Origin: Acetobacter cerevisiae
GTDB lineage: Bacteria; Pseudomonadota; Alphaproteobacteria; Acetobacterales; Acetobacteraceae
Assembly: GCF_001580535.1 (NCBI RefSeq)
Contig: NZ_LHZA01000157.1
Location: 62,001-126,000, forward strand
DNA: 64,000 bases
Direction of reading: 5' to 3'
Shown: one piece after another, positions 36,017 to 41,595 of the stretch
Layout of the letters: the number at the start of each line of letters is the position of its first letter
How positions within the stretch are numbered: the stretch's first letter is position 1
Made by a program: the position numbers and the translations under genes
The notes under the pieces: model-generated
Databases searched by the model: none
Told to the model about the DNA's origin: nothing
What the model saw: the letters and a program-made list of their open reading frames with translations, nothing else

Positions 36017-36017
<1 letters not shown>
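35106..36017 (-). CDS. prmA: Ribosomal protein L11 methyltransferase
   Basis: This SAM-dependent enzyme trimethylates ribosomal protein bL11. The 303-residue protein has the PrmA linker motif AFGSGEHGSTRGCLRALE, the SAM-binding motif DLGCGSGILAMAAA and VFANILARPL in place of the usual NPPY-like motif. Its ATG overlaps the stop of the upstream helicase gene by one base (TAATG), and it ends in a strong terminator, so it is the second gene of a two-gene operon. Confidence 0.93.
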
Positions 36018-38239
<2,222 letters not shown>

Positions 38240-38293
38240 ATTCACTTTACCCTTATATCGTCTTGAAAGCCTGAGGCCAATCGGAGCAGTGGC

Positions 38294-39070
38294 ATGGTGT
38301 CCTCCGAAAATGGAGAAAAACAGAGCAGTTTTGGACGAAGGGAGGGGAGTGCCCCTTTTTCTTCCACAGGCCCGGCAGGGCACCGGCAGCGCATGCGCGC
38401 GCGGGTTTTAAGCGCGGGGGCTGCGTCTCTGGCGGATTATGAGCTGTTGGAAATGCTGCTTTTTCCGGGTGTGCCCCGGCGGGACACCAAGCCGTTGGCC
38501 AAGGCGTTGATCAACCAGTTCGGATCTTTGGCGGATGTGCTGGAAGCTGCGCCAGAAGCCCTGAAAGAAGCGGGAGCAACGCGTGGGAACGTGGCGTTGC
38601 TGGGACTGGTGCCGCTGGCGGCGGACCGGCTGGGCGCACCGGATGAGCCTGTGCGCGTTGACCTTGGGAGTTGGGACAAGCTGCTGGCGTATTGCGCAAC
38701 GCATCTGGTGACGGCTGTGGCGGGGGCGCTCCATGTTTTGTTTCTGGATAGCCGCAATCAATTGCTGGCGGATGAAGTTGTGGAGACGCAGGAAAGGGCG
38801 ACGCCGGGAGAAGAAGGCGTTCCCATTCCTGTGCCGCAGGTGGTCTCCGCCGTTATGCAGAGGGCACTGGCGCTGCACGCCTGTTCTCTGATTACGGTCA
38901 GGCTGGCGGCAGACGATGTGCAGCCGGACCGCCAGCTTTTGCATGATGGGCCACTGGTGCAGGCGCTTTTGCAGGCCGCCCCTTTGCTGGCGGTGACCAT
39001 GCATGACCATGTGGTGCTGAAAGGGCGCCGCTGGCGCAGTTTTCGGCATCTGGAGCAGCAGGCATGGTGA
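38294..39070 (+). CDS. RadC-like protein with degenerate JAMM site (first of a tandem pair)
   Basis: A 258-residue RadC/UPF0758 relative. The N-terminal helix-hairpin-helix part is well kept (HRQRMRARVLSAGAASLADY, then ELLEMLLFPGVPRRDTKPLA and INQFGSLADVL). The C-terminal half aligns with the MPN/JAMM core (VLFLDSRNQLLADE), but where active RadC has HNHPSGDP-x-PS-x-xD this protein has TVRLAADDVQPDRQ. All metal ligands are gone, so it should be enzymatically dead. GGAG precedes the ATG. It overlaps the intact radC by 7 bases, which suggests the two proteins are made together and may form a pair. It is intact, not a pseudogene. Confidence 0.82.
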   Translation: MVSSENGEKQSSFGRREGSAPFSSTGPAGHRQRMRARVLSAGAASLADYELLEMLLFPGVPRRDTKPLAKALINQFGSLADVLEAAPEALKEAGATRGNVALLGLVPLAADRLGAPDEPVRVDLGSWDKLLAYCATHLVTAVAGALHVLFLDSRNQLLADEVVETQERATPGEEGVPIPVPQVVSAVMQRALALHACSLITVRLAADDVQPDRQLLHDGPLVQALLQAAPLLAVTMHDHVVLKGRRWRSFRHLEQQAW

Positions 39071-39834
39071 CGCGACTGCCAAAAGGCAAAGGCAGGCGCT
39101 CTAAATCGGAACTGGCGGATATTGCAGGGTTCAAGCTTCAGGCCGACGCGGTGCAAACCGGGCCGCCTCTGCCAGATTTGCCATTTTTGTCAGAATTGGC
39201 CGAAGCAAGGACTTTAGTTAAGGTTCCTGATGACCATAAGGTTCTGACTCAGCTGATTACGCTTATTACGCCCCGGCATCCTGCGCCGGACATGTGGGCG
39301 ACGTCTCTGCTGAATCAGTTCGGGTCTCTGGCCGCTCTCCTGTCCGCTCCCGATCAGGTCATGCTGGGGATTTCCGGCCAGACCCCGGCGTTCCGGGTAA
39401 CGTTGCGGCTGGTTCAGGAGGCGGCTGTGCGGTTGCATAAAGCGCGGTTGAAACGAGTGGGTGTTCTGGCGGACAGGGCGCAGCTCAAAGCCTATCTTAG
39501 CGCCATGCTGGCGCATGAGCGGGTAGAACAGGTGCGGGTGCTCTTTCTGGATAAGGGGCACCGTCTGCTTGCCGATGAAATGCTGGGGCGCGGCACTGTG
39601 GACCACACGCCCATTTACCCCAGAGAAGTAATGCGGCGCGCGCTGGAGCTTCAGGCCAGTATTCTGGTGGTGGTGCATAACCATCCCAGTGGAGACCCGT
39701 CTCCTTCGCAGGATGATATCTTCATGACCCAGCGGATTGCGCAGGCGGCCACGTTGCTGGGCATCACGGTCTGGGACCATGTGATTGTTGGCAGTGGTCG
39801 CCTGTTAAGCCTGAAAGAAGAAGGGGTCTTTTAG
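39064..39834 (+). CDS. radC: RadC/UPF0758 family JAMM-domain protein (intact)
   Basis: A 256-residue protein with the complete JAMM metal site HNHPSGDPSPSQDD in its C-terminal MPN domain and the preceding LFLDKGHRLLADEMLGRGTVD strands. The N-terminal part keeps LLNQFGSLAALL but lacks the usual RMRxRLL...DYELLE start, which the upstream partner has instead. RadC was once linked to recombinational repair, but its true role is unsettled. Its start is 7 bases inside the upstream gene, with GGAG 8 bases before the ATG. It ends 4 bases from the convergent purK stop, with no terminator between. Confidence 0.9.
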   Translation: MVTRLPKGKGRRSKSELADIAGFKLQADAVQTGPPLPDLPFLSELAEARTLVKVPDDHKVLTQLITLITPRHPAPDMWATSLLNQFGSLAALLSAPDQVMLGISGQTPAFRVTLRLVQEAAVRLHKARLKRVGVLADRAQLKAYLSAMLAHERVEQVRVLFLDKGHRLLADEMLGRGTVDHTPIYPREVMRRALELQASILVVVHNHPSGDPSPSQDDIFMTQRIAQAATLLGITVWDHVIVGSGRLLSLKEEGVF

Positions 39835-39838
39835 GCCT

Positions 39839-41020
39839 TTAGGCGTCGTCGTTCCCGGCGTCCGGCTTTTCCGCCAGCGGGCCAAGGGCATCCCGAATGC
39901 CCAGTGCGCCGGGCAGACTGCCATAGGGGAACAGGATGTTTACGTGGCCCATCTTGCGGCCCACGCGCGCTTCGGCTTTGCCATAAAGATGCGGGATATG
40001 TCCCGGCGTGGCGAGAATGTCAGGCCACAACGCCATATCATCCGGCCCGACGAGATTTTTCATCACAGCATCAGAATGGCGCAGCGTGGGAGGTAAAGGC
40101 AGGCCCGCGACGGCGCGGATATGCATATCGAACTGGTCCGCCGGGCAGGCGTCCATGGTCCAGTGGCCGGAATTATGCGGGCGCGGCGCGATTTCATTCA
40201 CCAGCAGATTGCCGGTGCTGTCGATAAACATTTCCACGCCCAGAATACCGATAAGATCCAGTTTTTCTGCAATAACGACCGCCAGAGCCTGAGCGCGCTG
40301 TGCGGTTTCTTCCGGCACGGGGGCGGGGGCCAGTGTGAGGTCCAGAATACCATCCCGATGGTAATTGAGGCCGGGCGCAAAGCAGCGTGTTGTGCCGTCT
40401 GTGCCACGCACGACCATCACACTGATTTCACAGGCAAAATCCACCATCCCTTCCGCGACCAGCGGGTGGGGAGCGAGAGAGGCAAAGGCCTCTTCCAGTT
40501 GGGAGGCCTCATAAACGCGGGCCTGCCCCTTGCCGTCATACCCGTTGCGCGTGGTTTTCAGGATGAACGGGAAACCGAGCTTTTCCGCCGCAGCGTGCAG
40601 AGTGGGGTGATCGGTAACGGCCATCCAGGGGGCGAGGGGAATCTCCGCCTCTGAGAGAAAAATCTTTTCTGCCAGTCTGTCCTGACTGATGCGCAGGATC
40701 GCGCCGGAGGGGCGCACAGGACAGTGCTGAGCCAGACAATCCAGCGCGTCGGCACTGATATTTTCAAACTCAAAGGTGACGACATCCACGGCGCGGGCAA
40801 AGGCTTCCAGCGCCTTGTGATCATCATATGCGCCAAGCGTGACCTGATGGGCGACCTGTGCCGCCGGGCCATTGGCGTCCTGCGTGAGAATATGCGCGCG
40901 AAAGCCGAGCTTAGCGGCCGCGACAGCGGACATGCGGCCCAGCTGGCCGCCGCCCACAATGCCGATGACAGAATTGGGAGCAAGTGCGGGCGAAGAAGAC
41001 CGGGAAGAAGAAGCTGACAT
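39839..41020 (-). CDS. purK: 5-(carboxyamino)imidazole ribonucleotide synthase
   Basis: This ATP-grasp enzyme carboxylates AIR in purine synthesis. The 393-residue protein opens with a Ser-rich leader, then IGIVGGGQLGRM. It goes on to TTRNGYDGKGQA (ATP-grasp glycine loop), the metal-binding VNEIAPRPHNSGHWT, and the C-terminal GKAEARVGRKMGHVN. Its ATG overlaps the purE stop by one base (TAATG). Confidence 0.95.
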   Translation of the reverse strand: MSASSSRSSSPALAPNSVIGIVGGGQLGRMSAVAAAKLGFRAHILTQDANGPAAQVAHQVTLGAYDDHKALEAFARAVDVVTFEFENISADALDCLAQHCPVRPSGAILRISQDRLAEKIFLSEAEIPLAPWMAVTDHPTLHAAAEKLGFPFILKTTRNGYDGKGQARVYEASQLEEAFASLAPHPLVAEGMVDFACEISVMVVRGTDGTTRCFAPGLNYHRDGILDLTLAPAPVPEETAQRAQALAVVIAEKLDLIGILGVEMFIDSTGNLLVNEIAPRPHNSGHWTMDACPADQFDMHIRAVAGLPLPPTLRHSDAVMKNLVGPDDMALWPDILATPGHIPHLYGKAEARVGRKMGHVNILFPYGSLPGALGIRDALGPLAEKPDAGNDDA

Positions 41021-41595
41021 TATTCGTTTTCAGAAATCGGAGCGTTAGCGACGGAGGCTGTTTGCAGGGCGCGCCATGCGTCCAGCTTTGCGGCGAGCTC
41101 CGGGTCTTGCAGGGCCAGAATGGAGGTTGCCAGAAGGGCGGCATTTTTGGCTCCGGAGGCTCCAATAGCGAGTGTGCCGACGGGCACACCACCGGGCATC
41201 TGAACGATGGAGAGCAGGCTGTCCATGCCTTTCAGGGCGCGGGATTCCACTGGCACCCCCAGCACGGGCAGGCGGGTCCATGCCGCACACATACCGGGCA
41301 GATGGGCTGCCCCGCCAGCACCGGCAATAATAACAGAGAGGCCACGATCCGCTGCGGTTTTGGCATACTCAGCAAGCCGGTCCGGCGTGCGGTGGGCCGA
41401 GACAATCAGCGTTTCATGGGCAATGCCCATGTCTGTCAGAATGGCATCTGCATGGCGCATGGTCTCCCAGTCCGACTGGCTACCCATGATAATGCCAACC
41501 TTAGGAGCAAGGTCGGCGTTCTGAGATGGGGCGGTGGGCAGGGGGGCAGTTTCGCTCACGATAAGGCACGATCCGGTTGGTGGGGAAATGGTCAC
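41020..41595 (-). CDS. purE: 5-(carboxyamino)imidazole ribonucleotide mutase
   Basis: This class I PurE converts N5-CAIR to CAIR. It has the signatures [40 protein letters not shown] and [20 protein letters not shown]. The start is a GTG at 41595 that overlaps the stop of the upstream DUF465 gene by 4 bases (GTGA), so translation is coupled; an inner GTG at 41559 is an alternative. A leader of about 30 residues precedes the conserved core. Confidence 0.94.

Follow-up and report, generated by a model that had tools for sequence, protein, structure and literature searches.

Two RadC paralogues of acetic acid bacteria with reciprocal loss of the metal site and the N-terminal signature

In the eukaryotic complexes Rpn11-Rpn8, BRCC36-KIAA0157/Abraxas and CSN5-CSN6, an MPN chain that bears the JAMM motif is paired with a homologous chain that lacks it. 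In bacteria, canonical RadC (UPF0758/COG2003) is composed of a UPF0758_N part and a RadC JAMM MPN domain, and for this RadC branch we know of no ubiquitin-type substrate. A review that deals with RadC-like DinG states that RadC seems to have no connection with DNA repair and that the function of the domain still has to be studied (PMC11981726). A literature search, with most subscription papers outside its scope, returned no report of a split or paired RadC.

The genes described here lie in a stretch of 64,000 nucleotides from Acetobacter cerevisiae (contig NZ_LHZA01000157.1, positions 62,001 to 126,000), hereafter the window. An earlier note on this stretch had described two overlapping RadC-like genes, and both were recovered. 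Gene A (38294..39070, + strand, 258 aa) is a RadC paralogue with the N-terminal signature and the MPN fold, lacking the JAMM metal ligands; gene B (39064..39834, + strand, 256 aa) is a RadC paralogue with an intact JAMM motif, lacking the GHRxRMR...DYELLE signature. They share the 7 bases ATGGTGA (39064..39070, + strand), the start of B lying within the end of A, an arrangement that would fit translational coupling of the two genes. The full JAMM motif claimed for B is present, with the ligands HxH...D found as VHNHPSGDPSPSQDD, and at the same site A reads TVRLAADDVQ. The Pfam RadC MPN domain is matched by B with 138.7 bits and by A with 33.1 bits (cut-off 22.1). The UPF0758_N domain is matched by A with 30.5 bits (cut-off 27.1); in B it gave no Pfam match up to an E-value of 1, and the RMRxR...DYELLE start is indeed gone from this copy. 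By NCBIfam models, B passes TIGR00608 (175.7 bits, cut-off 133.85) and falls narrowly below the cut-off of 180 for PRK00024 (176.7 bits), and A fails both, with 80.7 and 80 bits, respectively.

The surroundings of the pair provide context. A UvrD/PcrA-type helicase (36017..38383, - strand) is the divergent neighbour, outside the pair, and PurK (39839..41020, - strand) is the convergent one, followed by PurE (41020-41595). In the source genome, which comprises 3.09 Mb in 157 contigs, A and B are the sole two RadC-domain matches. Among named genomes, the closest match is that of Acetobacter malorum LMG 1746, in which A is 94% identical. No sigma-70-like promoter or terminator pattern was found at 38100-40000. 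A LexA pattern was matched twice in the window, with 1.72 matches expected by chance and none near A or B. The plasmid search returned three records with short matches, all of them under helicase genes.

On the evidence of their sequences, A and B have lost opposite parts of canonical RadC: A is deprived of the JAMM site and retains the basic N-terminal helix, the DYELLE signature and the MPN scaffold, and B retains the JAMM site without that signature. This two-way pattern recurs across the group, so that it is not a matter of chance. The JAMM pattern H.H.x10.D occurs in none of 50 A frames and in 55 of 56 B-like frames, the single miss being a fragment; among the 56, the gene of G086 is counted twice, that of G093 is canonical, that of G132 is an additional, divergent copy, that of G013 is a fragment and that of G126 is broken. 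All 49 aligned A sequences retain the His and the three Arg of GHRxRxR and, in DYELLE, the Asp, the Tyr and both Glu; the last Glu of DYELLE is E in 49/49 A versus 5/53 B. The JAMM Glu discriminates less well, being E in 42/53 B and still in 41/49 A. A strict N-terminal pattern was matched by 45/50 A, the misses being G009 (a fragment), G040, G061, G122 and G173; this pattern would overlook some canonical genes, and looser ones were used in other comparisons. The description of A as a copy with a helix-hairpin-helix start and MPN strands was borne out for the UPF0758_N start, the MPN fold and the TVRLAADDVQ replacement of the ligands, but the second helix-hairpin-helix glycine is poorly kept, being G in 11/49 A, 23/53 B and 10/10 canonical sequences.

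Predicted structures are in agreement with a preserved fold. In the AlphaFold2 model of A, the MPN domain is mostly above pLDDT 90, with strands at residues 146-151, 156-163, 198-204 and 235-243, and the N-terminal part consists of helices within residues 27-114; the pTM of the whole chain is 0.57, which leaves the domain arrangement of A unsure. The best structural match of the model is RadC 2qlc, on which the MPN domain of A superposes (Z 16.1, rmsd 2.5, 124 residues). With confidence, the metal-less domain of A is predicted to have retained the MPN fold. For residues 34-115, weak matches to XPF/Hef-type helix-hairpin-helix domains were obtained (Z 5.7-6.5), and fold matches besides 2qlc (Z up to 7.4) were not taken as functional evidence. 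In the AlphaFold2 model of B, residues 1-50 are poorly predicted, and a helical region at 57-132 comprises helices 57-68, 75-86 and 108-132. The claim that each copy lacks the half kept by the other thus holds for the JAMM site of A and the signature of B, but not for the helical domain, which B is predicted to retain; what B has lost is the initial basic helix together with the invariant signature, not the entire front half.

Among 200 genomes of the Acetobacteraceae, a RadC-domain match was obtained in 191, A in 57, and the B partner in 56 of these 57. The sole holder of A without B, G163, is 73% complete and has only a divergent JAMM copy. The family scan was carried out in two parts, the first with 57 genomes chosen for small size or weak scores and the second with 57 others that had at least two RadC matches in the first search. 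An A profile was run on the 57 genomes of the second part and four of the first, on 80 of the remaining 86 and on four more; G139 and G145 were covered by the first family searches, with no match there. In the scan of the 80, 77 genomes had one match, taken as canonical by its place and length, and short second matches in G078, G108 (C208), G110, G147 and G163 (C564) were left aside. The 57 A genomes comprise 52 from the first part of the scan and, in addition, G017, G043, G080, G108 and G163; in G043, A is too weak for a listed Pfam match, and both A and B are present. Four genomes of two genera, G029, G116, G077 and G144, gave no RadC match, and three of them are at least 98% complete.

Loci of named species gave a similar account, with A in 36 of 80 and B within the fetched stretch in 29 of these 36. 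The seven A loci without B in the stretch are those of A. fallax, A. sacchari, A. estunensis, A. conturbans, Acetobacter sp. AN02 and Lichenicoccus roseus, and one at a contig end; for two of the seven, B lies further off, about 5 kb on in G086 and on another contig in G117. Both genes were found in Acetobacter, Gluconobacter, Gluconacetobacter, Asaia, Acidomonas, Tanticharoenia and Roseomonas mucosa, among others. Absence or frame-shift of the degenerate copy in close relatives had been named by the earlier note as an argument against its reading; this check gave no refutation, with A found in 57 genomes. An apparent frame-shift of A in G030, of the same genus, was rejected, as its two matches sit in one open frame. 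It is B that is broken in two genomes, by an in-frame TGA in G126 (L099) and by a division into two frames in G017 (L212), and A is open in both. In a wider survey of the Alphaproteobacteria, RadC was matched in 82 of 96 sampled genomes, and a strong-plus-weak RadC pair was listed in two, G000 and G040, both Acetobacteraceae; this survey would overlook an A as weak as in G043 or G070, and it left aside second matches in G211, G249, G264 and G293. A candidate distant A/B pair in G218 was rejected because its weak match lies in a frame without RadC signatures, which we take to be phage-like.

The reading preferred here, which is regarded as probable with modest confidence, is that A and B are an enzyme and pseudo-enzyme MPN pair that arose by reciprocal loss, works as a complex and together amounts to one canonical RadC. 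A and B would form a hetero-oligomer via their MPN domains. A would hold the target, be it DNA itself, a protein bound to DNA or some other partner, and would position or activate B; B would act as a zinc-dependent hydrolase, the bond cut being probably a peptide or isopeptide one, and the two would jointly do the job of the single canonical RadC found elsewhere. Binding, activity, substrate, mutual dependence and a role on DNA are what we infer for the pair. The proposal that the two act together as MPN+/MPN- partners had been made from the window; it gains from the co-occurrence in 56 of 57 genomes, the constraint on the MPN domain and two natural fusions, and it loses from an overlap that is not conserved and a linkage that is loose. 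The alternative that survives best is subfunctionalisation without a complex, in which A is a stand-alone binder and B a stand-alone JAMM enzyme, both of which matter and do not touch. This alternative is considered rather unlikely.

An unrooted tree built from 139 rows separates 53 of the 54 A rows from the rest by a branch (SH-aLRT 99) and unites 49 of the 53 B rows in one set (SH-aLRT 98); it fixes neither a sisterhood of A and B nor the order of the split. Rows L196, L157, L186, L188 and L200 are odd because motif labels misfiled these genes; L196, with its lone His-to-Pro change, is an otherwise canonical RadC labelled A by pattern only. Cut or broken drafts (L124, L132, L147, L151) were excluded from the tree; the co-variation test excluded these four and L139. 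The same genus groups, Acetobacter with Gluconacetobacter, Gluconobacter, and Asaia, recur in A and in B, which fits joint inheritance. In many sister genera, two RadC copies lie apart in the genome. Most simply, A and B would stem from one RadC duplication, and their source may be separate copies of the sister-genus type or a tandem duplication. The Elioraea-type RadC tandem (L157:3970-5678, L219:2778-4550) was set aside as a different one, both genes of which keep the JAMM motif and the RadC front end.

A JAMM-bearing RadC without the N-terminal signature was also found beside canonical RadC in G143, G154 and G197, three genomes in which the searches gave no A. Two of these copies, together with three extras from G059, G132 and G163, share one set with all 24 B rows in a small tree (95), and the front-end loss of the B type may be older than the pairing. 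Signature-less copies in genomes where no A was found speak for subfunctionalisation: front-end loss alone is no proof of dependence on A, and the support for the pair is slightly lowered. Concerning these additional genes, L220 of G197 (the copies of G143 and G154 being L232 and L233) has a long N-terminal extension, at a guess a response-regulator part. The divergent JAMM-positive extras L120, L216 and L226 (G132, G163 and G059, respectively) group together (99) and are perhaps, again as a guess, of mobile origin.

The common gene order is PrmA, UvrD (divergent), A, B, PurK and PurE. Where A and B adjoin, they overlap, counted from the first usable start codon, by 7 bases in G030, 4 in G169, G059 and G101, and 8 in G034. 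An opposite-strand HAD phosphatase gene lies between them in 10/29 named-species loci and 23/45 family-survey loci with both genes. A and B are unlinked, with both kept, in G013, G040, G117, G122 and G173, and on opposite strands, divergently, in G043 and G080. The family-wide check of pair, order and overlap thus upheld the pair, with B accompanying A as reported above, but overlap and adjacency vary and the HAD gene often intervenes; this frequent separation, together with the unlinked and divergent cases, speaks for proteins that act apart. As a side observation, the intervening gene is a HAD_2 phosphatase in many genera (e.g., L104:3265-4002). UvrD is near A in 43/50 family-survey loci (window included) and 28/36 named-species loci, and it was not within the examined stretch of the Roseomonas-type loci. 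Its position had been read as a pointer to a DNA-related role; being divergent, accompanied by PrmA, PurK and PurE, and missing from the Roseomonas-type stretch, UvrD carries little weight as a hint of function.

Against subfunctionalisation without contact stand two separate A-B fusions. In G066 (2.0 Mb, 3 contigs, 100% complete), a single frame of 626 aa beside UvrD (L087:3318-5195) comprises an A half at residues 34-261 and a B half at 472-608. Its N half scored 126.9 bits with the A model, 67.1 with the canonical and 9.6 with the B model, and its C half scored 159.3 bits with the B model, 109.9 with the canonical and 39.1 with the A model. In G108, which also has an ordinary separate A/B pair, a single frame of 523 aa (L214:2816-4384) comprises an A half at residues 13-228 and a B half at 288-507, with 113.0 (A), 101.6 (canonical) and 69.8 bits (B) for the N half and 257.4 (B), 247.8 (canonical) and 96.2 bits (A) for the C half. 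The model of its own family is therefore the best for each half, by a wide margin in G066 and by a narrow one over the canonical model in G108. In the tree, the halves are placed within the sets of A and B, respectively; the fusions are not sisters of each other, and their N halves are long-branched. Two fusions, both in the order A-B, indirectly suggest joint action of A and B.

Selection on A was evaluated in four close pairs, with NG86 dN/dS values of 0.114, 0.106, 0.064 and 0.082 for A, and 0.129, 0.115, 0.076 and 0.128 for B. For the MPN half of A the four pairs gave values of 0.116, 0.081, 0.096 and 0.078; a further pair, window-orientalis, is saturated in this half. By YN00, dN/dS of A ranges from 0.06 to 0.18. 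Values for UvrD and PurK are mostly lower (0.025-0.080), with the exception of PurK in Gluconobacter (0.162), and the UvrD value of the Gluconobacter pair (7.4), which came from a cut in the wrong frame, was left out of the controls. Judged by these substitution rates, A is under purifying selection, the metal-less MPN domain included, and this constraint points to a domain in use. A stand-alone binder would not obviously need a constrained metal-less MPN domain, which argues further against subfunctionalisation. In its favour, the distance correlation between A and B over 47 genomes (0.84, partial 0.61) is hardly above that of the UvrD-PurK control (0.79, partial 0.56), and the tree co-variation is not specific to the pair.

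A could also regulate B or canonical RadC, either by competition or by damping, in that it would bind the same targets and leave them uncut. Its N-terminal signature without ligands would suit such a role, and a canonical-type RadC is present beside A and B in six genomes (G012, G017, G043, G080, G102 and G159). However, B has no signature with which A would compete, and the fusions put A and B in one chain; this explanation is held to be improbable. That A is a decaying duplicate, a pseudogene in progress, as its vanished metal site and variable replacement stretch might hint, is scarcely credible and is contradicted by the selection result, with dN/dS of about 0.1 in both halves of A, by N-terminal residues invariant in 49/49 aligned A, and by the single set of 53 A rows across many genera.

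In comparison with described systems, canonical RadC is homologous to A and B in both parts, and in sister genera it carries both in one chain, whereas here the signature and the JAMM motif stand on two genes; in consequence, each of the two conserved parts can be deleted or purified alone. The RadC-like DinG likewise has a RadC-type JAMM domain in a nucleic-acid protein, but there the domain is joined to a helicase and not to a second, metal-less RadC as here (PMC11981726). The RadC split over two genes occurs in acetic acid bacteria and some Roseomonas-type relatives. Taken as a whole, the evidence suggests that A and B act as complementary halves of a single machine. Like the eukaryotic MPN+/MPN- pairs, A and B are homologous MPN chains of which just one, B, bears JAMM ligands, but they belong to the bacterial RadC branch and are known from sequences and single-chain models; weak fold matches of A to chains of the eukaryotic complexes (Z 5.6-7.1) reflect the shared fold only. 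We give an even chance to the reading that the RadC family has, throughout this clade, produced a bacterial MPN+/MPN- heterodimer of independent origin from those of eukaryotes, in which one chain supplies targeting and scaffold and the other the zinc active site, and which became a single chain in two lineages. Should the complex prove true, it would clearly illustrate how reciprocal loss can convert a single protein into two that depend on each other, and it would be a bacterial parallel to Rpn11-Rpn8.
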